Below, piece after piece: positions 32,772-42,452 of a stretch of DNA of 43,834 bases. The translations under genes and the position numbers were made by a program. Below the pieces are notes generated by a model. It was not told the DNA's origin and made no database searches. It worked only from the letters and a program-made list of their open reading frames with translations. Positions within the stretch are counted from its first letter, which is position 1, and every line of letters begins with the position of its first letter. Origin of the DNA: Bacillota bacterium (lineage in GTDB: Bacteria > Bacillota > Bacilli > Alicyclobacillales > Alicyclobacillaceae); assembly GCA_021799255.1 (NCBI GenBank), contig JAJZAV010000003.1, forward strand, positions 1 through 43,834, given 5' to 3'.

Positions 32772-33638
32772 CTACTCTCTCAAGTAGGGTAGAACACGAT
32801 TCATAAGATTTTGCAGATCCTTGGCCATTTCACCGTAGGACGTCTTGGCGTCGGGGTTGTCTGTCTGCAGTGCGAAGAGTTCCATGTCCGCTTGCAACTT
32901 CTTCAGGCTAGCCGCTAGCAGAGCGCGTTTTTTCGTCTCTGGCGCCTTAAGAGAGTCGTAGTACAAATCCACATATAGATTCCCATTGGAGTCCACTTGA
33001 GCGAGAAACACATCATCGGTGCTCTTCGCCCCCTGTTTTAATACCTCACCCAACAACCATTCGCGAGAATAGCCGAGATACTGCAACGATTTCTCCATCA
33101 CATTGCCGTCAATGATCAGAATGCGAGGCTCATGCTCGGACAAGACCGGCAACTGAACGTCTTTAGGGGTGAGGGGTTGTAATTCTGTTTTCTTGAGAAC
33201 GCTAAGTTTTCCATTGTTCTCAAAAACAGCGTACTCCGCATCGGAGATTTTAAAGACATCCTTTTGGCGGAGCAGCATCAGAAGTTCCTCCGTGGACATG
33301 TGAACCCGTGATAGGTTTTTCTCCAATATCTGCCCATTTTCCATGAGAATGACCGCACGCCCATCCAATAACGTGCGCGCTTTATAAGACTTCTTCTGGA
33401 GGAGAGCGAGCACCACCGACAATAGAGACCATATCGCTAATGATAAAACGGCGTGCAGATTCTTGATTTCATCTAAGGACCATGCCGCAGCGATGTTTCC
33501 AATCGTGAGCCCCACGATGTAGTCGAAGAAGGTTAGTTGGGCGATTTGTCGTTTTCCTAAAATGCGCGCCAAAATGAATAGGGCGATGAATGCGATAAAT
33601 GACTGGTAGATCACCTCGAAAGTCGTCGGTTCCTGCAT
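32772..33638 (-). CDS. DUF421/YetF-family membrane protein
   Basis: LGKRQIAQLTFFDYIVGLTIGNIAAAWSLD and C-terminal YetF-like domain. Confidence 0.9.
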   Translation of the reverse strand: MQEPTTFEVIYQSFIAFIALFILARILGKRQIAQLTFFDYIVGLTIGNIAAAWSLDEIKNLHAVLSLAIWSLLSVVLALLQKKSYKARTLLDGRAVILMENGQILEKNLSRVHMSTEELLMLLRQKDVFKISDAEYAVFENNGKLSVLKKTELQPLTPKDVQLPVLSEHEPRILIIDGNVMEKSLQYLGYSREWLLGEVLKQGAKSTDDVFLAQVDSNGNLYVDLYYDSLKAPETKKRALLAASLKKLQADMELFALQTDNPDAKTSYGEMAKDLQNLMNRVLPYLRE

Positions 33639-33874
33639 GCCATGTTCCCTTCACGGTTCATGTTTAACTCCGTACACTACTCTTCCACGACGGTCTCTAT
33701 CGCATACACCAGCCCCGGCCCGACGTCCCGAAGGATCACCGCTACCGACGAACGCTCTCCAATCGGTTAGCGGGCACAACGTCGCAGAGTGGGGCGTACC
33801 CGGGCTGCCCGCTTAGGCAAGTACCGAGTCAGTTTCGGAACTGCAAAAATACAATGTCGATAAACAAACGAGTG

Positions 33875-33947
33875 GGTGATGGAGCTCACCTGAATGTCCG
33901 TTAGGATAATGGCTCCTGCGATTCTCCAAGATCGCAGGAGCCATTAT
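33875..33947 (+). ncRNA. Fluoride riboswitch (crcB motif) #1 with overlapping terminator
   Basis: GGTGATGGAGCTCACC ... ATAATGGCTCCTGCG; GGAG/CTCC pseudoknot; 17-bp perfect terminator arms ATAATGGCTCCTGCGAT (33906-33922)/ATCGCAGGAGCCATTAT (33931-33947) then U-rich. Confidence 0.86.
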
Positions 33948-33974
33948 CTCTTTATTCAATCAAGAAAATTCGAG

Positions 33975-34003
33975 TTGACAATGGGCGATGACTTCTTTAC
34001 GAT
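33975..34003 (+). promoter_or_regulatory. Candidate sigma-A promoter between riboswitch #1 and #2
   Basis: TTGACA (33975-33980), 17-nt spacer, TACGAT (33998-34003). Confidence 0.5.
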
Positions 34004-34019
34004 GAGGGTAACTGAAATG

Positions 34020-34090
34020 GGCGATGGAGTTCGCCGGAACTGCTTTCGAGCTGATGACTCCTACCAGTGATGACTGGTGGGAGTTTTGTT
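34020..34090 (+). ncRNA. Fluoride riboswitch (crcB motif) #2 with overlapping terminator
   Basis: GGCGATGGAGTTCGCCGGAACTGCTTTCGAGCTGATGACTCCTACC; terminator arms ACTCCTACCAGT/ACTGGTGGGAGT then TTTTGTTTTT. Confidence 0.92.
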
Positions 34091-34111
34091 TTTATGCGAG
34101 AGTCCCCAACA

Positions 34112-34197
34112 GGCGATGGAGCTCGCCGACAACTGCCTTTTTTCCCAAGGCTGATGGCTCCTACCGATTCGGTCCAAGAATCGGTAGGAGCTTTTTT
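34112..34197 (+). ncRNA. Fluoride riboswitch (crcB motif) #3 with overlapping terminator
   Basis: GGCGATGGAGCTCGCCGACAACTGCC...GGCTGATGGCTCCTACC; terminator arms GCTCCTACCGATTC/GAATCGGTAGGAGC then TTTTTT. Confidence 0.95.
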
Positions 34198-34223
34198 GCT
34201 TCTTCGTAAGGAGGCGGAAACCG

Positions 34224-35174
34224 ATGAGTGAAGCAAGATTGTTCTCTCTACAATTGCTTCAACTGGGCTTTGTTCTTGTGGTCTCCCCCCTCATTGCAGG
34301 CGTCCTCGCTCGGATGAAGGAGTTCGTTCAAGGCAAGGCAGGGCCAAGCATTTTTCAGCCCTACCGGGATCTTCGCAAGCTGTTCCAGAAAGAGCGGCTG
34401 ATTCCCGAGGGTTCTGGGCCCGTGTATCGCCTTGCTCCTTACCTGTATTTTTCAGCACCGCTCATCGTCACGCTGCTCATCCCGGTGCTCACGACGTTTC
34501 CCCTGTTTATGGCGTTTGCTGGAGACATGATGGCGGGCGGATTCATCCTTGGACTCGGAACGTACGTATTGCTCGCAGGGGCCATGGCAGGAGCTAGCCC
34601 GTACGGCGCCATCGGCAGCAGCCGCGTTCGATTTGTCTCCATGTCCGTCGAACCAGTACTCATTCTTGTCCTGTTTTGCGTGAGCTTCGTGGCGCACACC
34701 ACGATTCCGTACATCGTCAATCAAACCCTCTGGGGCCTTCGATGGTCCCCTATTCACCTGCTTTTGATTGCCTCGTTCTTCGCCATTCTATTGGCCGAGA
34801 CGGGACGCATCCCGGTAGATAATCCTTCGTCTCACCACGAATTTTCTATGATTGATCACAATCGTGTGTACGACTATTCCGGACCCGATTTAGCTCTACT
34901 CGAGTGGGGCGGGTGGATGAAGTACGTCGCCCTCGGGACCATCTTTTTGAACGTTATCGTTTCCCCCTACGGCTTGTCCCACAGCCCGGGCCTCATTTGG
35001 GTAGCCCTGGCCATCGTGGCGGTGTTCGTGAAGTTTGTACTGCTAGACGCCGCCATCGTTTGGGTGGAGTCGTCCTTCGGAAAACTGCGCCTGCTGCGGA
35101 TAGCAGAGTTTATGGCTTCGGCGGGCATGGCGGCCGGATTGGCCGTTCTCTTGGGAATTTTGCACGCTTGGTGA
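34224..35174 (+). CDS. Hyf/Hyc-type membrane subunit, NuoH-like (HyfC/HycD)
   Basis: GPSIFQPYRDLRKLFQKE, AETGRIPVDNPSSHHEFSMIDHNRVYDYSGPDLALLEWGGWMKY; AAGGAGG RBS. Confidence 0.92.
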   Translation: MSEARLFSLQLLQLGFVLVVSPLIAGVLARMKEFVQGKAGPSIFQPYRDLRKLFQKERLIPEGSGPVYRLAPYLYFSAPLIVTLLIPVLTTFPLFMAFAGDMMAGGFILGLGTYVLLAGAMAGASPYGAIGSSRVRFVSMSVEPVLILVLFCVSFVAHTTIPYIVNQTLWGLRWSPIHLLLIASFFAILLAETGRIPVDNPSSHHEFSMIDHNRVYDYSGPDLALLEWGGWMKYVALGTIFLNVIVSPYGLSHSPGLIWVALAIVAVFVKFVLLDAAIVWVESSFGKLRLLRIAEFMASAGMAAGLAVLLGILHAW

Positions 35175-35231
35175 AGGCTTTCGGCTAACGCCTTGCCACG
35201 TTCGAATTCGTCGAAGAGGGAGGAACTGTCC

Positions 35232-35867
35232 ATGTGGGCTGAATCGCCTACCGTCTATGTTCTCGTTTTGTTGCTTGGCATCTGGATTGCCATGTCGCGA
35301 GAAACCCGAATTGCGGTGAATGGCTATGTCCTTCAAACGGCGTTGGTAGCCCTTTTGTACGGACTCACCGCGTTCCAAACCAGGGACTCGATGGAATATG
35401 TGGTTCTATTCGGGCTTGTCGTGCTTCGCCTTGGCCTCATCCCATGGCTATTACGTCGTTTTCTTCGAGGCGAACTTTATACAGCCCGACAAACCCGCGA
35501 GGTCTTTTCCCCGGCGTACGCCTTAGCGTTGCATATCATCCTTGCCGTCGTCGGCATTGCAGTCGGACAGAGCGCGCAACCGGGAACGCTCGGACTGGAT
35601 TTCGGAATGACCATCGCGGTTCTCCTCGTCGGTTTGGCGACCGTGACCATCGCGCATCATGCTCCCAAGCAGGTCATGGGAATCTTGGCTGCGGATAACG
35701 GGATCGATCTCGCTGTCGTCCTCACCTTGCGCCGCTTCACCGCGGTCGCGGACTACGCCATCTTTGTCGACGTCACGGTGGCGGCGCTTTGTCTCACCCT
35801 GATGGTGCTTCGACTCTTCGCGTACGGTTCTCAGCACGCCCATCATTTCAACGACCTGAAGGGGTGA
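35232..35867 (+). CDS. Hyf-type membrane subunit, HyfE/NuoK-like
   Basis: About 211 aa polytopic protein, position and length as HyfE; ATG at 35232 after GAGGGAGGAA. Confidence 0.85.
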   Translation: MWAESPTVYVLVLLLGIWIAMSRETRIAVNGYVLQTALVALLYGLTAFQTRDSMEYVVLFGLVVLRLGLIPWLLRRFLRGELYTARQTREVFSPAYALALHIILAVVGIAVGQSAQPGTLGLDFGMTIAVLLVGLATVTIAHHAPKQVMGILAADNGIDLAVVLTLRRFTAVADYAIFVDVTVAALCLTLMVLRLFAYGSQHAHHFNDLKG

Positions 35868-35874
35868 TTGGTGC

Positions 35875-37314
35875 ATGTGGACTTATATTTTGCTTTGCAT
35901 TCCTCTCGTTGGAATCTTGGTCACTTGGCTGAGTTCTGCGTCCATCCGTCGGTGGGTGCCGGTTGTGACGACAGGGCTGAACCTCGTCGTTGCCGCATTT
36001 GACGGGTTCTTGCCCAAGAGTTCTGTCCCTTTCAGAGGCGTGTTCCCCCATCTCGACACGCTCTCGCTGGTGGTCACGGGCATTACCCTCGTGGTCGGTT
36101 TCACGGCCGCTCTGTATTCCGCAGGCTACGTGCCGAGGGACCACCCGTCCGTGCCTGGAACGCAACCTGCTTCCGAACGCAGATATTTCAGTCTGTTTTT
36201 GGCATTCTACCTGACCATGTTGGCCGCTCCACTCGTGGAAAACGTCGTCCTCACGTGGGTGATGGTGGACGCCACCGCACTCGCCTCGGTGTTTCTGGTG
36301 GACTTCCACCATACAAGGAAGACGGCGGAGGCCTCATGGAAATACATCATCATCATGGAAGTCGGAGGGCTGGCCGCCCTGTTTGGAACCGTCGTTCTCT
36401 TGCTCGGCGAACCCGCGGCCCTTCACGATTTGACGTGGACGGGTCTCACGCACGTCGCGTCCACCATTTCACCGAAATTGTCGTCCATCGCCTTCGTGCT
36501 CGTTCTCGTCGGATATGGCACCAAGGCGGGGCTCGTGCCTTTTAACTCGTGGTTGCCTGACGCACACAGCCAGGCACCCTCGCCAGTTAGCGCCATGCTG
36601 AGCGCCATCAAACTCAATACCGCGATGTATGCCATCGTGCGCGTATTGCACATTTTGCAAGCGGGTCACGAAGGAGCATTTGCCAACCACGCGCTTGCGG
36701 TGTTCGGGTTTCTCACAGTCATCGTGAGCACGTTGATGACGACCGTGCAGCGCGATGTGAAACGGTTGTTGGCGTATTCGAGTTCCGAGAACCTGGGCCT
36801 CATTGCCGTAGGGTTCTCACTTGGCCCCATCGGCGCTCTCGGAGCCTACTTGCAAATGGTGAACCACTCGGTGGTCAAGTCGATGCTTTTCTACCAGTCG
36901 GGCGAGCTTCTGCTGGCATCCGGAACCACGGAGATGGCCCAAATGCGGGGCATGATCCGCCGGATCCCCTGGCTCGGAGTCACGCTCTTGTTCGGAATGC
37001 TCGCCATTGCGGGTGCACCGCCCTTCGGGCTCTTCATCAGCGAGTTCACCATCATCTTCGCGTTGGTGCACGAAGCTTCTCCGTGGCTCGCGGCCCTCAT
37101 CACCCTGATGCTCGTTATCCTGTTTGCCAATTTTCTCACGTACGCCATGAGGATCAGCCTTGGCACGCCTTCCCATCCGCTCGCTACGGACGGCAGCAAC
37201 TATCGCCCGAGGTGGACGACGTGGGTGCCGATGTTCAGTCACACTGGGGTGTCATTGGCGCTTGGCACCGTTTTACCTTACCTGTTGGTTCTTTCCCGAT
37301 TTGTGCGAATCTGA
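35875..37314 (+). CDS. Proton-translocating antiporter-like subunit, HyfF/NuoN-M-like
   Basis: YGTKAGLVPFNSWLPDAHSQAPSPVSAMLSAIKLNTAMYAIVR, DVKRLLAYSSSENLGLIAVG. Confidence 0.93.
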   Translation: MWTYILLCIPLVGILVTWLSSASIRRWVPVVTTGLNLVVAAFDGFLPKSSVPFRGVFPHLDTLSLVVTGITLVVGFTAALYSAGYVPRDHPSVPGTQPASERRYFSLFLAFYLTMLAAPLVENVVLTWVMVDATALASVFLVDFHHTRKTAEASWKYIIIMEVGGLAALFGTVVLLLGEPAALHDLTWTGLTHVASTISPKLSSIAFVLVLVGYGTKAGLVPFNSWLPDAHSQAPSPVSAMLSAIKLNTAMYAIVRVLHILQAGHEGAFANHALAVFGFLTVIVSTLMTTVQRDVKRLLAYSSSENLGLIAVGFSLGPIGALGAYLQMVNHSVVKSMLFYQSGELLLASGTTEMAQMRGMIRRIPWLGVTLLFGMLAIAGAPPFGLFISEFTIIFALVHEASPWLAALITLMLVILFANFLTYAMRISLGTPSHPLATDGSNYRPRWTTWVPMFSHTGVSLALGTVLPYLLVLSRFVRI

Positions 37315-37332: not shown

Positions 37333-38841
37333 TTGAAAGTACTGACCGCGCAAGGTTCGAATCTAAAACACGTCGAACGGCAACACCATCGCATCGGTGA
37401 TCTCGTGCACGCCGTGGTTCATTTCGCATCAGAAGAATCGGCGCAATTACTTTACTTCGGGTGGATCCCCAAAACGGGTGGATGGTCTAGACTCCTGGCC
37501 GTGATTGGTCGCCCGAAACACGCGCTGATTGAGTGGCACCACGCGGCCCCAACGTTCGGCCAAACAGCGTACCCCTCGCTCTCCGCGCGTTGGCCCGCGG
37601 CTTTGTGGTTAGAACGCGAAATGTGGGAGTTGACGAAGGTACTCCCGGTGGGCCATCCGGACCTGCGGGCCATTCTGCATCCCGAGAATCAAGAAGAGCG
37701 GATTGTGGTGCATGGAGACGAGGTTTTTCAATTGCCTCTAGGCCCTGTGCGATCCGATGTCGTCGAATCGATGTTCATGCGATTTGACACGCAGGGCGAG
37801 CAAATCGTGCACATGCAGCCTGAACTCTTTTACAAGCACCGGGACATCGAACGACTCGCGGTTGGACTCCTATATCCGGACGGGCGATTCCTGGCGGAGC
37901 GCGTTGCTGGGACTTCCACGATTGCCCACGCGACGGCCTACGCTCGCGCCATAGAGCATGCCTTAGGACATGTCGTTCACCCCAAGGTGGAGCAGGAACG
38001 CATCGTGTTTGGGGAATTGGAACGTCTCTACAATCATGCGCACGACATGGCCCAGATGGCGAGCGCCGCCGGAATGACCGTAGCGCAGGCGCAACTCTCC
38101 CGCGTTAAGGAGGAGTGCCTGCGCGTGAACGGCGATCTCTGCGGGTCTCGGTATCTGCGCAACGCAGTGCTTCCATACAAGGGGTCGGACGTCGAATGGG
38201 CGCAAGTCGTGTCCACCGTCATACGGAGGCTGCGAGACATTAATGGAAGGTTTACACAGTGCCTGGACCTGTTGCGAAGAACGCCGACGTTTGTGGACCG
38301 ATTCGTGGGGGCGGGCATCGTGAAGCAAGAATGGGCACGCGCCTACGGGACGGTAGGACCCGTTGCTCGCGCTTGTGGGCAGCCCGTCGACGTGCGGGAG
38401 GATTATTTGCGGGATCGGTACGAACAGCAGGCGTATCGTGTGGTTGTCGACGAAGCGGGCACCGGTGACGGGTGGGCCCGATTTGTCGTACGCGCGGGGG
38501 AATGGGAAATATCGCAGAGGGTTCTTACCAAGGGTCTCCAACTGCTCGCGAACGGGGACTTCATGGAGGCGGGCAGTTTGGCAGGAACTCAAGATGACTC
38601 CAAGAACGACGGTTTCTCGCTTGAACGCACCGGCATCGGTCTTTCTGAATCTCCGCGAGGTCGCGTGTGCCACGTGGTTCAATTGGATCCGGATGGACGG
38701 CTGGCCTTTTGGGGAATCCGGGCCGCGTCGGCGTGGAACTGGCCTGTGTTGGGCCTTGCGGTTGCGAACGGCAACATCCAACAGGATTTCCCGCCCATTG
38801 AGGCGAGCTTTGGATTGTCCTGCGCAGGCGTGGATAGGTAA
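37333..38841 (+). CDS. HyfG/HycE-like large subunit (NuoCD fusion) lacking most [NiFe] ligands
   Basis: FYKHRDIERLAVG...AERVAGTSTIAHATAYARAIEHALG aligns by eye with the HycE L1 region; C-terminus EASFGLSCAGVDR in place of DPCxxC. Confidence 0.85.
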   Translation: MKVLTAQGSNLKHVERQHHRIGDLVHAVVHFASEESAQLLYFGWIPKTGGWSRLLAVIGRPKHALIEWHHAAPTFGQTAYPSLSARWPAALWLEREMWELTKVLPVGHPDLRAILHPENQEERIVVHGDEVFQLPLGPVRSDVVESMFMRFDTQGEQIVHMQPELFYKHRDIERLAVGLLYPDGRFLAERVAGTSTIAHATAYARAIEHALGHVVHPKVEQERIVFGELERLYNHAHDMAQMASAAGMTVAQAQLSRVKEECLRVNGDLCGSRYLRNAVLPYKGSDVEWAQVVSTVIRRLRDINGRFTQCLDLLRRTPTFVDRFVGAGIVKQEWARAYGTVGPVARACGQPVDVREDYLRDRYEQQAYRVVVDEAGTGDGWARFVVRAGEWEISQRVLTKGLQLLANGDFMEAGSLAGTQDDSKNDGFSLERTGIGLSESPRGRVCHVVQLDPDGRLAFWGIRAASAWNWPVLGLAVANGNIQQDFPPIEASFGLSCAGVDR

Positions 38842-38853
38842 GGAGGGAAGGAC

Positions 38854-39252
38854 ATGTTCGCTAGCTGGCTGCGATTCGGGCTCACAAGTGGTCGCGTGAC
38901 GACGAGCTATCCAAAGAATAGGGAGGTTCTGCTGAGGGAGCACTCATCCTGGCATACGGTGCCGCGCCTCGACGCAACGGCAGCGCGCAAGCCGACGCCA
39001 ACCCTCCAAGATGTGAAAGCATGGGCGATGCGGTGTCCAACCTCGGCGCTGTTCGTATGGAGCGACGAGTCGGGATGGGGAATCTCTCTTGATGAGGGCG
39101 CGTGCATCGGCTGCAATCGCTGCGTGGTGCCGAACGTGCAGAGGGTGACGGAGTGGGGAGCAGACGTGGATCTCTTTGCCCTGGATAGGCTTGCACTCGT
39201 GGACAGCGTTCGGCTACAAGGAGGGGACTTTCGCGATGGACAACAAAAGTGA
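38854..39252 (+). CDS. Reduced HyfH/NuoI-like ferredoxin subunit
   Basis: MRCPTSAL...GACIGCNRCV; exactly four cysteines; position between large and small subunit genes. Confidence 0.75.
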   Translation: MFASWLRFGLTSGRVTTSYPKNREVLLREHSSWHTVPRLDATAARKPTPTLQDVKAWAMRCPTSALFVWSDESGWGISLDEGACIGCNRCVVPNVQRVTEWGADVDLFALDRLALVDSVRLQGGDFRDGQQK

Positions 39253-39718
39253 CTGGAACGAGTTGGACGCCGAGAAGCAGGCGGCTTCCCGGTTACGTAG
39301 AATCTTCGGAAAGTCCCTCCATGTGCGGCACATCGACGTGGGCTCCTGCAATGCATGTGAATCTGAGGTTTTGGCGTTGTCCAACCCGTACTACAACTTT
39401 CACCGCCTTGGCCTGTTCTTTACGGCTTCGCCTCGGCAGGCGGATGTGTTGCTTGTGACGGGGGCGATGACGCCCACCATGAAACCCATCCTTATGGAAA
39501 CGTACGAGGCGATGCCCAAGCCCCGATTGGTCGTTGCCGCGGGGGTATGCGCCATCCACGGAGGGGTGTTTGCCAACAGCCGGCAATTCGCCGGCCCCGT
39601 GGAATCCGTAATTCCAGTCGACGCGTTCATCCCAGGGTGCCCTCCGACTCCGTACGCGTTGATAAACGGTATCCTTGCGGCCGTAAATGGGCGCGAAGGA
39701 GTGACGCGAGATGCGTGA
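39236..39718 (+). CDS. HyfI/HycG/NuoB-like small subunit
   Basis: DVGSCNACESEVLAL, VVAAGVCAIHGGVF, FIPGCPPTPYALING; ATG at 39236 with AAGGAGGGG RBS. Confidence 0.93.
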   Translation: MDNKSDWNELDAEKQAASRLRRIFGKSLHVRHIDVGSCNACESEVLALSNPYYNFHRLGLFFTASPRQADVLLVTGAMTPTMKPILMETYEAMPKPRLVVAAGVCAIHGGVFANSRQFAGPVESVIPVDAFIPGCPPTPYALINGILAAVNGREGVTRDA

Positions 39719-41816
39719 CTTTTATTGGATCTCGGTTGCCTGGTTCTTGATCCCGCTCGCTTTGTTTCCGTGGTTCCGCCGAGAACGGGCCCTTCGGCCC
39801 CTTCGCTGGGCGGCTCTCGCCATCGGATCTCTTCTTCAAACGGCGCTGGGAATATGGGCACTTTCAGATTCCTCCCGCCTCGTTGTCGCCAAGTTCCCCA
39901 GCGTCCCGTTCTTCGGAACTTGGCTGTTTCGGATGGATCCTTTGACGTCGCTCTTGTTTGCTCTGCTCGGACTTATCGGCCTCGCGTCTAGCATTTATGC
40001 GATTGGATTGAGTCGGAACCGAGCGCTCGGCACCGGATGGATGAGCGCAAGTGCCGTGGCGCTGCAGTTCATGTTCACCAGTTTCTTGCTCACTTCGCAA
40101 GACGCCGTTGCACTCTTAGTGGCGTGGGAAGGCATGAGCCTTTGTGCCTACGCCTTTGTGGCAATCAATCACGGGTTGATACGCGTGAGGCGGGCCGCGT
40201 TCACGACGCTCGTGGCGAGTGAGATTGGCTTTCTGGCACTCGTGATTGCCGTCGTCATGGCGGCACCGGTGAGCGGAGGATTCACGTTTGCACAGCTCCA
40301 CGCCTCGCTCGTCCATCATCCCGAATCGTTGCGCTGTGTCGTGCTAGTGCTGGGCCTCGTCGGCTTCGGGGTGAAAAGCGGCATTTTGCCGATGCAGATG
40401 TGGATGCCCGGAGCGTACGACGCGGCGCCAGCTCACATGAGTGCCATTCTCGCGGGTGGGCTTCTCAACCTAGGGATATTCGGTATCCTCCGGACCCTCG
40501 AATGGGTCGGCGCACTTCCTTCACCCTGGGGCGTTGCGCTGGTGTGTGTGGGGGCGTTGGCCGTGTTTTTGGGGTCGCTGTACGCGGTGATGGAGCGACG
40601 GCTTGGCCGGTTGCTCGCTTACAGCAGCATCGAGAACGTTGGGTTTATGATCATCGGCATAGGCCTATCCATCGCCTTTCGTGCCACTGGGGCGGCAGCT
40701 TTTGCCTCGGTGGCGCTCATGGCCATGTTGGCGCAAATGATCTCCCACGCACTGGCCAAGGCGCTTTGCTTCTTGGCAACGGGTGAGGTTGAACGCCGCA
40801 CAAAGAAGGCGGATCTCTCCGCTTTGGGAGGGTTGTACCGAGACATGCCCGTGGCCGCGATCACGCTGTTGGTGGGTTCCTTAACCTTGGCCGCGGTTGC
40901 CCCGTTCAGTGGATTTACGGCCGAATGGTTGACCCTTCAGTCCATGCTGCAGGTCTACCGCACCCTGACGCCCGTTGAGCAGATGGTCGTGATTGGCGCG
41001 GGCGCTCTGACGGCCATCGGATCTGCGCTAGCTTTCACCGCCTTCCTTCGATTGTTCGTGTTTCTATTCACGGGGAAGCCCCGCAGGGCAGCGGTGACAT
41101 TGCGGGTGCGCCAGAATACGAGCGGCAAGCTCACAAACCTCGCCATCATAGGCCTGGGAAGTGTGTCCGCGCTGTACGGATTTGTGCCGACCGCCGTCTT
41201 CAACTGGATTGGCAAGGTCGTTGCGGAGATAGTGCCATCGACAAATGCAATTTCACAAACCAACCCGGATGTGTTTGGCCGTCCCGCGGCATTTTCGTCG
41301 ACGGTCGCCCTGGGAGGGGACCTGTTTTCTTTTGCGCCCGTGCGCAGTTTCATCGTTCAACCCGCCGCAGGAGTGAGCAGCATCGCTCCGACATACCTCA
41401 TGGGGTGGTTTCTCCTGTTCTCAGTTCTCGCCTTCGGACTGAGCAAGGGACTTCGGCGCAGCCGTTTCGGGTCTCGAACCGTCCCCTCGTGGGTGGGCGG
41501 GCGCTCCCTGGATGTTTCGGAGACCCAGTACAATGCACCTGGATACTCGAATGTTTACCGAATGTTTTTCCGTTCATTGCTCCGCTTTCGCGTCAGCACC
41601 GCGGTGATGGAAGGGGCGCCCGATGTGCCCACGGAGGTGTCTGTAAACGTGCGAGCAACCAAATGGCTGTACAGCGCAATTTACCGCAGCTGGGTCAAGA
41701 GGGTGCGCAAGCGCCTGGACGGGGTTCGGCACATCCAACACGGGTTGCTGTGGGGGTATTTGTCCGCCATGGTCCTCACGCTCGTCCTTTTACTGCTCTT
41801 TGCGACGTGGAAATGA
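39711..41816 (+). CDS. Antiporter-like membrane subunit, HyfB/HycC/NuoL-like
   Basis: LVAWEGMSLCAYAFVA, GFGVKSGILPMQMWMPGAYDAAPAHMSAILAGGLLNLGI, RRLGRLLAYSSIENVGFMIIGIG. Confidence 0.94.
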   Translation: MRDFYWISVAWFLIPLALFPWFRRERALRPLRWAALAIGSLLQTALGIWALSDSSRLVVAKFPSVPFFGTWLFRMDPLTSLLFALLGLIGLASSIYAIGLSRNRALGTGWMSASAVALQFMFTSFLLTSQDAVALLVAWEGMSLCAYAFVAINHGLIRVRRAAFTTLVASEIGFLALVIAVVMAAPVSGGFTFAQLHASLVHHPESLRCVVLVLGLVGFGVKSGILPMQMWMPGAYDAAPAHMSAILAGGLLNLGIFGILRTLEWVGALPSPWGVALVCVGALAVFLGSLYAVMERRLGRLLAYSSIENVGFMIIGIGLSIAFRATGAAAFASVALMAMLAQMISHALAKALCFLATGEVERRTKKADLSALGGLYRDMPVAAITLLVGSLTLAAVAPFSGFTAEWLTLQSMLQVYRTLTPVEQMVVIGAGALTAIGSALAFTAFLRLFVFLFTGKPRRAAVTLRVRQNTSGKLTNLAIIGLGSVSALYGFVPTAVFNWIGKVVAEIVPSTNAISQTNPDVFGRPAAFSSTVALGGDLFSFAPVRSFIVQPAAGVSSIAPTYLMGWFLLFSVLAFGLSKGLRRSRFGSRTVPSWVGGRSLDVSETQYNAPGYSNVYRMFFRSLLRFRVSTAVMEGAPDVPTEVSVNVRATKWLYSAIYRSWVKRVRKRLDGVRHIQHGLLWGYLSAMVLTLVLLLLFATWK

Positions 41817-41870: not shown

Positions 41871-42269
41871 TCATTGTCCCAGTTCTTCGTTCGTATTCCA
41901 AATCCGGCCGCTGACGGTGGACACAAGGAGATCCCCCACGTACGCGAGGACGGGTCCCCCAATCATACTCGCTGCTATGTATAAATAGCTCGCCAACGGA
42001 CTATGCCGAAATAACGTGTCGGTGTTGAGGCAGAATGTCGAGAACGTCGTGTAGGCCCCAATAAGGCCGACCCCAAAGCCTACACGAAGCCAGTCAGGAA
42101 TGTCGCGGAAGGCAGCAATCCCATAGAACACTCCGAGGACGAAAGATCCGCTTAAATTGATCAGCAACGTAGCGTTTGGGAACGCTCCATCGGCTGGGAT
42201 GATATGCGCTAGTAAATATCGGAGAAAGCCGCCGATGGCCCCCCCAATGAGAAGCGCAACGTATTTCAT
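41871..42269 (-). CDS. crcB: Fluoride exporter CrcB/FluC
   Basis: MKYVALLIGGAIGGFLRYLLAHI, FPNATLLINLSGSFVLGVFYG, RVGFGVGLIGAYTTFSTFCLNT; start at 42269 with AAGGAAGGA RBS (ORF track start is further upstream). Confidence 0.95.
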   Translation of the reverse strand: MKYVALLIGGAIGGFLRYLLAHIIPADGAFPNATLLINLSGSFVLGVFYGIAAFRDIPDWLRVGFGVGLIGAYTTFSTFCLNTDTLFRHSPLASYLYIAASMIGGPVLAYVGDLLVSTVSGRIWNTNEELGQ

Positions 42270-42356
42270 TCTGATTCCTTCCTTCTGTCCGCCACGTGGC
42301 ACGTGGCGTGTGGCATGGGGTGGGTGCGATGTGCCATCGCTAGAAAAACAATAAAA

Positions 42357-42433
42357 CTCCTGTGACAATGACTAGATACGTCTCTCACAGGAGCCATCAA
42401 CCTCTTAGGTGGTTATCGGTGAGATCCATCACC
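42357..42433 (-). ncRNA. Fluoride riboswitch (crcB motif) #4 with terminator, upstream of crcB
   Basis: Minus strand GGTGATGGATCTCACCGATAACCACCTAAGAGGTTGATGGCTCCTGTGA; terminator arms CTCCTGTGA/TCACAGGAG then TTTTATTG. Confidence 0.92.
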
Positions 42434-42452
42434 CGTGTTTCTCAATGTGGGC

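Follow-up and report, generated by a model that had tools for sequence, protein, structure and literature searches.

The window analysed here, that is, the whole stretch of 43,834 nucleotides of contig JAJZAV010000003.1 from a member of the Alicyclobacillaceae (assembly GCA_021799255.1), contains an operon for hydrogenase/complex I-like subunits, a leader with three fluoride aptamers in front of it and a crcB gene behind a fluoride aptamer of its own. The operon lies on the (+) strand and begins with a gene for a HyfC/NuoH-like membrane subunit (34224-35174; Pfam NADHdh, 2.2e-32), followed by genes encoding a HyfE-like membrane subunit (35193-35867; NCBIfam NF008556, 6.4e-7, below the cut-off), a HyfF-like antiporter subunit (35875-37314; Proton_antipo_M, 9.3e-50) and a HyfG/NuoCD-like large subunit (37333-38841; Complex1_49kDa, 3.4e-23). 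A small ferredoxin-like protein with the motif CIGCNRC comes next (38854-39252); it has no Pfam or NCBIfam match and is kept in most orthologous operons. The last genes encode a HyfI/NuoB-like subunit (39176-39718; Oxidored_q6, 5.8e-30), whose coding sequence probably begins downstream of 39176, as the frame overlaps the preceding gene, and a HyfB-like antiporter subunit (39711-41816; Proton_antipo_M, 2.6e-43; hydrogenase 4 subunit B model, 1.3e-109, below the cut-off).

An identity as formate hydrogenlyase or another group 4 [NiFe] hydrogenase was considered for the product of this operon and rejected, since the large subunit lacks the NiFe ligands. In the alignment, the NiFe motif RVCGIC of E. 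coli HycE corresponds to RVAGTS (within RVAGTST) in the HyfG/NuoCD-like subunit, and the C-terminal motif reads FGLSCAGVDR in place of CxxC. Both NiFe CxxC motifs are lost, and in the same way, in 13 of 13 large-subunit orthologues, the one of the window included. The complex is thus predicted to be of the Ehr type and not a [NiFe] hydrogenase: a hydrogenase/complex I-like set of subunits without NiFe ligands fits the Ehr complexes, an assignment made from the published definition and the motif test. Ehr complexes are without the CxxC motifs, and their function has been described as unknown (PMC10284858).

Convergent to the Ehr-like operon, on the (-) strand, stands a further fluoride aptamer, RS4 (42381-42442; RF01734, 45.9 bits), overlooked by the first-pass annotation of this DNA, in front of crcB (41871-42368; Pfam CRCB, 1.7e-22), the gene of the Fluc fluoride channel, whose translation probably begins at the ATG near 42269. 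RS4 has a strong promoter (ATGACA-18-TATAAT; score 13.3, p = 0.005) and a terminator; its pseudoknot is imperfect by inspection (GGAUC vs GCUCC).

When the whole window was scanned with cmscan, RF01734, the Rfam model of the fluoride riboswitch (gathering score 34 bits), gave four matches and no other model reached its gathering score. Besides RS4, the matches are RS1 (33866-33925; 36.6 bits, E 1.2e-6), RS2 (34011-34070; 56.9 bits, E 2.6e-13) and RS3 (34103-34170; 56.8 bits, E 2.9e-13), all on the (+) strand ahead of the operon. The first-pass annotation had seen three fluoride riboswitches at 33875-34197 and had proposed an Infernal search with this model as a check; with every copy above 34 bits, the claim holds. 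The motif TGATGRCTCCTRC that it gave for the first copy is an error, since this copy actually reads TAATGGCTCCTGC. Helices P1 and P3 and the pseudoknot, in which a loop GGAG(C/U) faces a 3' (G/A)CUCC, are complementary in RS1, RS2 and RS3; in RS1, the P1 helix is GGT/ACC and the pseudoknot strands are GGAGC/GCTCC. By the positional criteria for tandem riboswitches of Sherlock et al. 2022 (PMC9481103), namely the same orientation, no ORF between the copies and a gap of at most 300 nt, the array is a tandem: its copies share one orientation, the match-to-match gaps are 85 and 32 nt and no convincing gene lies between them, the ORFs that overlap the array being short and running across the RNA structures. 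The exact triple is known from one draft assembly of 337 contigs.

Terminator-like hairpins are enriched around these aptamers, with four in the region 33600-34300 against a mean of 0.5 after shuffling, and three of the four overlap RS1, RS2 and RS3. T1, the hairpin of RS1 (33904-33949, +), has 20 pairs (-34.6 kcal/mol) and the weak U-tract CTTTATTCAA; T2, that of RS2 (34056-34085, +), has 13 pairs (-21.7 kcal/mol) and the tail TTGTTTTTAT; T3, that of RS3 (34156-34192, +), has 15 pairs (-27.2 kcal/mol) and the tail TTTTTGCTTC. The 5' arm of each includes the 3' pseudoknot strand of its own aptamer, and the 5' arm of T1 also takes up the 3' P3 strand of RS1. Since the 5' arms take these strands, the expression platforms are expected to compete with the aptamers, which is the anatomy of an ON switch. 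The U-tracts of T2 and T3 are good and that of T1 is poor, so RS1 may terminate poorly; the earlier view that each copy carries a terminator with a U-tract is therefore right for the hairpins and has to be corrected for the tail of T1. Judged by family score, pairing and terminator overlap, RS1, RS2 and RS3 are genuine fluoride riboswitches with predicted ON-type anatomy before one operon.

The next point concerns where transcription of the leader could start. A gene for a YetF-type membrane protein (DUF421 + DUF1657) lies divergent to the array on the (-) strand (32772-33638), so a promoter for RS1, if RS1 is transcribed, must fall in 33640-33866. The candidate there, named promoter P1, consists of a -10 element TACAAT (33850-33855, +; 6.6 bits) located 19 nt ahead of RS1 with a poor -35 element; with a combined score of 5.2 (p = 0.08-0.21), it is a weakly supported candidate for the promoter of RS1. 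Promoter P2, a sigma-70-like TTGACA-17-TACGAT matching 10 of 12 consensus positions (33975-34003, +), is the sole promoter-like site that a consensus scan of 33600-34300 detected, with a score of 12.8 (p = 0.003 against the shuffled RS1-RS2 spacer); it is identified by consensus alone, and its -10 element is imperfect. A set of 66 fluoride riboswitch leaders, mostly from Alicyclobacillaceae, served as a reference. In these leaders the -10 box mostly stands 12-21 nt ahead of the aptamer, 17 and 19 being the most frequent distances; that of P2 sits 16 nt before RS2, inside this preferred range, and by score P2 ranks near the top of the 66. The spacer between RS2 and RS3 (49 nt, mostly T2) contains no promoter, the best score being 0.2 (p = 0.37). 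The most likely layout of the leader is therefore P1-RS1-T1-P2-RS2-T2-RS3-T3-operon, in which, owing to the position of P2, only RS2 and RS3 would necessarily be in series. The first-pass annotation, which overlooked the promoter between copies 1 and 2, had all three in series; this would stand for RS2 and RS3, with no promoter between them, and not for RS1 and RS2, which are parted by P2.

As regards the origin of the copies, RS1 has its nearest relative in its own genome, the riboswitch of a second crcB (91%); for RS3 it is the proximal copy before the orthologous operon of G020, another genome of the family (84%), and RS2 is most similar to other copies (84-85%). A simple tandem duplication of one riboswitch was set aside, given that the three are not mutual nearest relatives, a result that is only suggestive for sequences so short. 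The pattern of nearest relatives tentatively suggests, with the same reserve about short sequences, that copies were recruited around an ancestral RS3 to form the array. The 11-nt sequence AATGGGCGATG occurs twice without a mismatch, at 33980-33990, within the spacer of P2, and at 34016-34026, at the 5' edge of RS2, and is possibly the relic of a further copy.

The first-pass annotation had also proposed a search for other genomes with at least two copies ahead of one gene, and such genomes exist. Tandem fluoride riboswitches occur in eight of 41 sampled Alicyclobacillaceae genomes (that of the window, G014, G018, G019, G020, G021, G032 and G033); G020 carries three pairs, and the array of the window is the sole triple among the 41. 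Other pairs of the family also have a promoter between their copies (L042-L045, p = 0.003-0.017), and the pairs before crcB usually show a -10 element there (L043-L045, p at most 0.01; L046 and L047, not significant). The pair of G019 is a true series before a Kef/CPA2-type antiporter gene, with a 65-nt spacer that holds no promoter. Its second aptamer shares the coordinates 58159-58221 with LJCO01000051.1 of Alicyclobacillus ferrooxydans, and from this match G019 would be that species; the riboswitch of LJCO01000051.1 was assayed singly with and without NaF in 2026, in a paper from which the word 'tandem' is absent (PMC13273304).

A degenerate tandem pattern run over genome contigs, too strict to amount to a census, gave four matches. 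Two of them (L036 and L037) were discarded, as RF01734 does not match there and the pattern falls within coding sequence; the confirmed pairs come from beyond the family and belong to Pelotomaculum terephthalicicum (L038) and to a Bacillota MAG (L039), where the pair stands before an antiporter gene. The Pelotomaculum tandem precedes only a short frame that resembles the start of a membrane protein and then meets a stop. Kef/CPA2-type antiporter genes stand behind fluoride riboswitches in separate lineages, behind tandems in L041 and L039 and behind a single copy in the window's own genome (L054). In the class sample outside the order, 69 of about 362 genomes have an RF01734 match under strict filters, nearly always one, and a permissive rescan of 20 of these flanks found one riboswitch in each and no tandem. 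In the genomes sampled, tandem fluoride riboswitches thus occur mainly, though not solely, in the Alicyclobacillaceae.

The association of the fluoride riboswitch with this operon is conserved. The order holds 12 further orthologues of the large subunit (46-57% identity), 11 of them in recognisable operons and the twelfth encoded by a hyfG-like gene that stands alone on a plasmid; the class sample outside the order yielded one weak relative (34%). One RF01734 copy precedes the orthologous operon in G039, G023, G033 (chromosome) and G037, and a match of 28 bits, below the threshold, precedes that of G049. The leader in G020 has two copies, with a promoter-like TATAAT between them (p = 0.017) and a degenerate upstream copy (GATGTGG). 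In G051-G053 (L087, L089 and L090), a divergent crcB-like element, GCGTTGGAGCTCGCG...GATGATAGCCCCTGC...terminator, to which RF01734 gives no score, follows a TTGACA-type promoter upstream of the hyfC-like gene and is possibly a variant aptamer. The operons of G038 and G032 have lost their upstream part at a contig end.

In a 137-kb plasmid-like contig of G033 (L051, G033:C2:21000-40000; NZ_CP066785.1), RF01734 matches seven times over a stretch of about 15 kb, close to genes annotated as CrcB, DUF190, an MFS transporter and a manganese efflux pump and the lone hyfG-like gene, and this region is a fluoride-response island. The source of NZ_CP066785.1, Alicyclobacillus sp. ALC3, came from acid mine drainage sediment. 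A search of plasmids for a copy of the leader found only short matches in Bacillus plasmids, each spanning one riboswitch.

Taken together, the anatomy of the leader, the family membership of its aptamers, the loss of the NiFe ligands and the conserved association between riboswitch and operon lead us to a reading with two promoters and three ON riboswitches, in which RS2 and RS3 would form a double gate and the Ehr-type operon would be induced under fluoride; we give it a probability of about 0.72. Transcription from P2 would start about 10 nt ahead of RS2, and RNA polymerase would then encounter T2 and T3 successively, each of which would be disarmed only when fluoride stabilises its own aptamer. 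As both terminators would block unless fluoride is bound, the operon would be transcribed only with both gates open. RS2-RS3 would thus act as a pseudo-cooperative AND whose two inputs are identical, keeping basal expression very low and raising the fluoride threshold. RS1-T1 would gate the weaker upstream promoter P1, whose transcripts would face three gates and might add transcription at high fluoride. Outside the leader, HF that enters the cell would bring in both H+ and F-; F- would leave through CrcB, whose gene follows a riboswitch of its own, and the Ehr-type pump would probably be induced to restore the proton/ion balance. This role of the pump under HF stress is suggested by the antiporter-like subunits, by the control shared with crcB and by the acid habitat of a relative.

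What stacking may contribute was explored by an illustrative calculation that assumes equal affinities and, at each gate, a read-through of 10% basally and 90% at maximum. For one, two and three gates, the calculated basal output is 0.10, 0.010 and 0.001, the half-maximal fluoride 1, 2.1 and 3.3 K and the apparent Hill number 1.0, 1.13 and 1.22. Stacking is hence expected to gain mainly tightness and threshold and less steepness. The expectations that had been attached to stacking on first reading thus hold, within this illustration, for a low basal level and a higher threshold, and less so for a steeper response, the gain in Hill number (1.0-1.22) being small.

Other readings of the same leader were weighed. 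Every transcript might begin ahead of RS1 and run through three serial gates, with TTGACA...TACGAT left unused, as could be argued from three complete riboswitches of one orientation within 330 bp, with no convincing gene between them, and from the -10-like TACAAT 19 nt before RS1; we find this unlikely, since P2, with its score and p value, occupies the usual promoter position of the family before its riboswitches, since other pairs of the family likewise have a promoter between copies and since P1 is the weaker of the two promoters. A somewhat better case, still a doubtful one, can be made for RS1 as a relic copy of another riboswitch of the genome, the working device being double or, with a dominant gate, effectively single. 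RS1 has the lowest score of the array, a weak U-tract and a weak promoter, it is closest in sequence to the riboswitch of the second crcB, and the upstream copy in the orthologous operon of G020 is degenerate. On the other hand, RS1 has kept P1, P3, the complementarity of its pseudoknot and an uninterrupted 20-pair stem that matches the aptamer, and these intact features suggest a maintained function or a recent origin. That the triple is an artefact of assembly, as its occurrence in a single draft genome could insinuate, is very improbable, because neither the three copies nor their terminators are identical in sequence and because independent genomes of the family have pairs, the two-contig assembly of G020 among them with the same operon.

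Beyond the layout of this leader, the wider proposal that natural fluoride tandem gates tightly control an Ehr ion pump in acid-adapted Alicyclobacillaceae, with fluoride/HF stress as the trigger, is one to which we give even odds. If it is true, Ehr complexes gain a physiological trigger, and the link between riboswitch and operon offers a directly testable hypothesis for the function of these complexes (PMC10284858). Tandems stand repeatedly before the Ehr operon, crcB and Kef/CPA2-type antiporters, which suggests that expression of these genes carries a cost or does harm when fluoride is absent. With one triple and several pairs, some split by a promoter and some in true series, the rules of stacking become testable within one ligand class.

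With regard to known systems, the Ehr complexes as defined in the literature (PMC10284858) and the complex described here have in common a set of group 4 hydrogenase/complex I-like subunits and the absence of the NiFe CxxC motifs; the link to fluoride control is present here, and none was found for Ehr in the literature searched. An association of the crcB motif with 'formate hydrogen lyase' genes was noted in 2010 (PMC2864571), so the link between riboswitch and operon is not new; the Ehr-like nature of the genes here is what differs. The leader agrees with other fluoride riboswitches (RF01734) in the sequence and structure of its aptamers, in the overlap with terminators and in its place before fluoride-response genes, but these riboswitches are normally single, whereas here there are three per leader, two of them in series. 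In the survey by Sherlock et al. 2022, which covered 44,270 genomes and environmental data, fluoride is listed as one of the classes for which no tandem was seen (PMC9481103), and the tandems reported here run contrary to it; the main text of Morales and Merino 2025 does not mention a fluoride tandem (PMC12452182). No natural fluoride tandem was found in the searchable literature, where a supplementary table may still list one, which agrees with the remark in the first-pass annotation that a triple fluoride array is not known to have been described.

In other classes, parallels are available. The pseudo-cooperative tandems, such as those of TPP and the c-di-GMP-I triplets (PMC9481103), also consist of complete riboswitches of the same class, each with its own terminator, but here a promoter parts the first copy from the other two. 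The Li+-I triplet before nhaD has a terminator after each aptamer and, like the present array, precedes an ion-handling gene, in that case an antiporter (PMC9646797). Promoters upstream of and between the elements are found in the adenine/T-box(Tyr) tandem of C. botulinum (PMC9481103), which, however, responds to two different ligands, whereas here there is one. For fluoride itself, a counterpart is the engineered pVK-2f2-lux, with two fluoride riboswitches in series as here: a very strong promoter could be cloned only in combination with two different fluoride riboswitches in series, and this construct was strongly repressed and inducible (PMC8814607), in agreement with the gain in tightness obtained in the gate calculation. 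That construct is synthetic and was made from two betaproteobacterial riboswitches, whereas the present array is natural. Triplets and a promoter between elements are therefore known from other classes, and what is new here is such an arrangement for fluoride.
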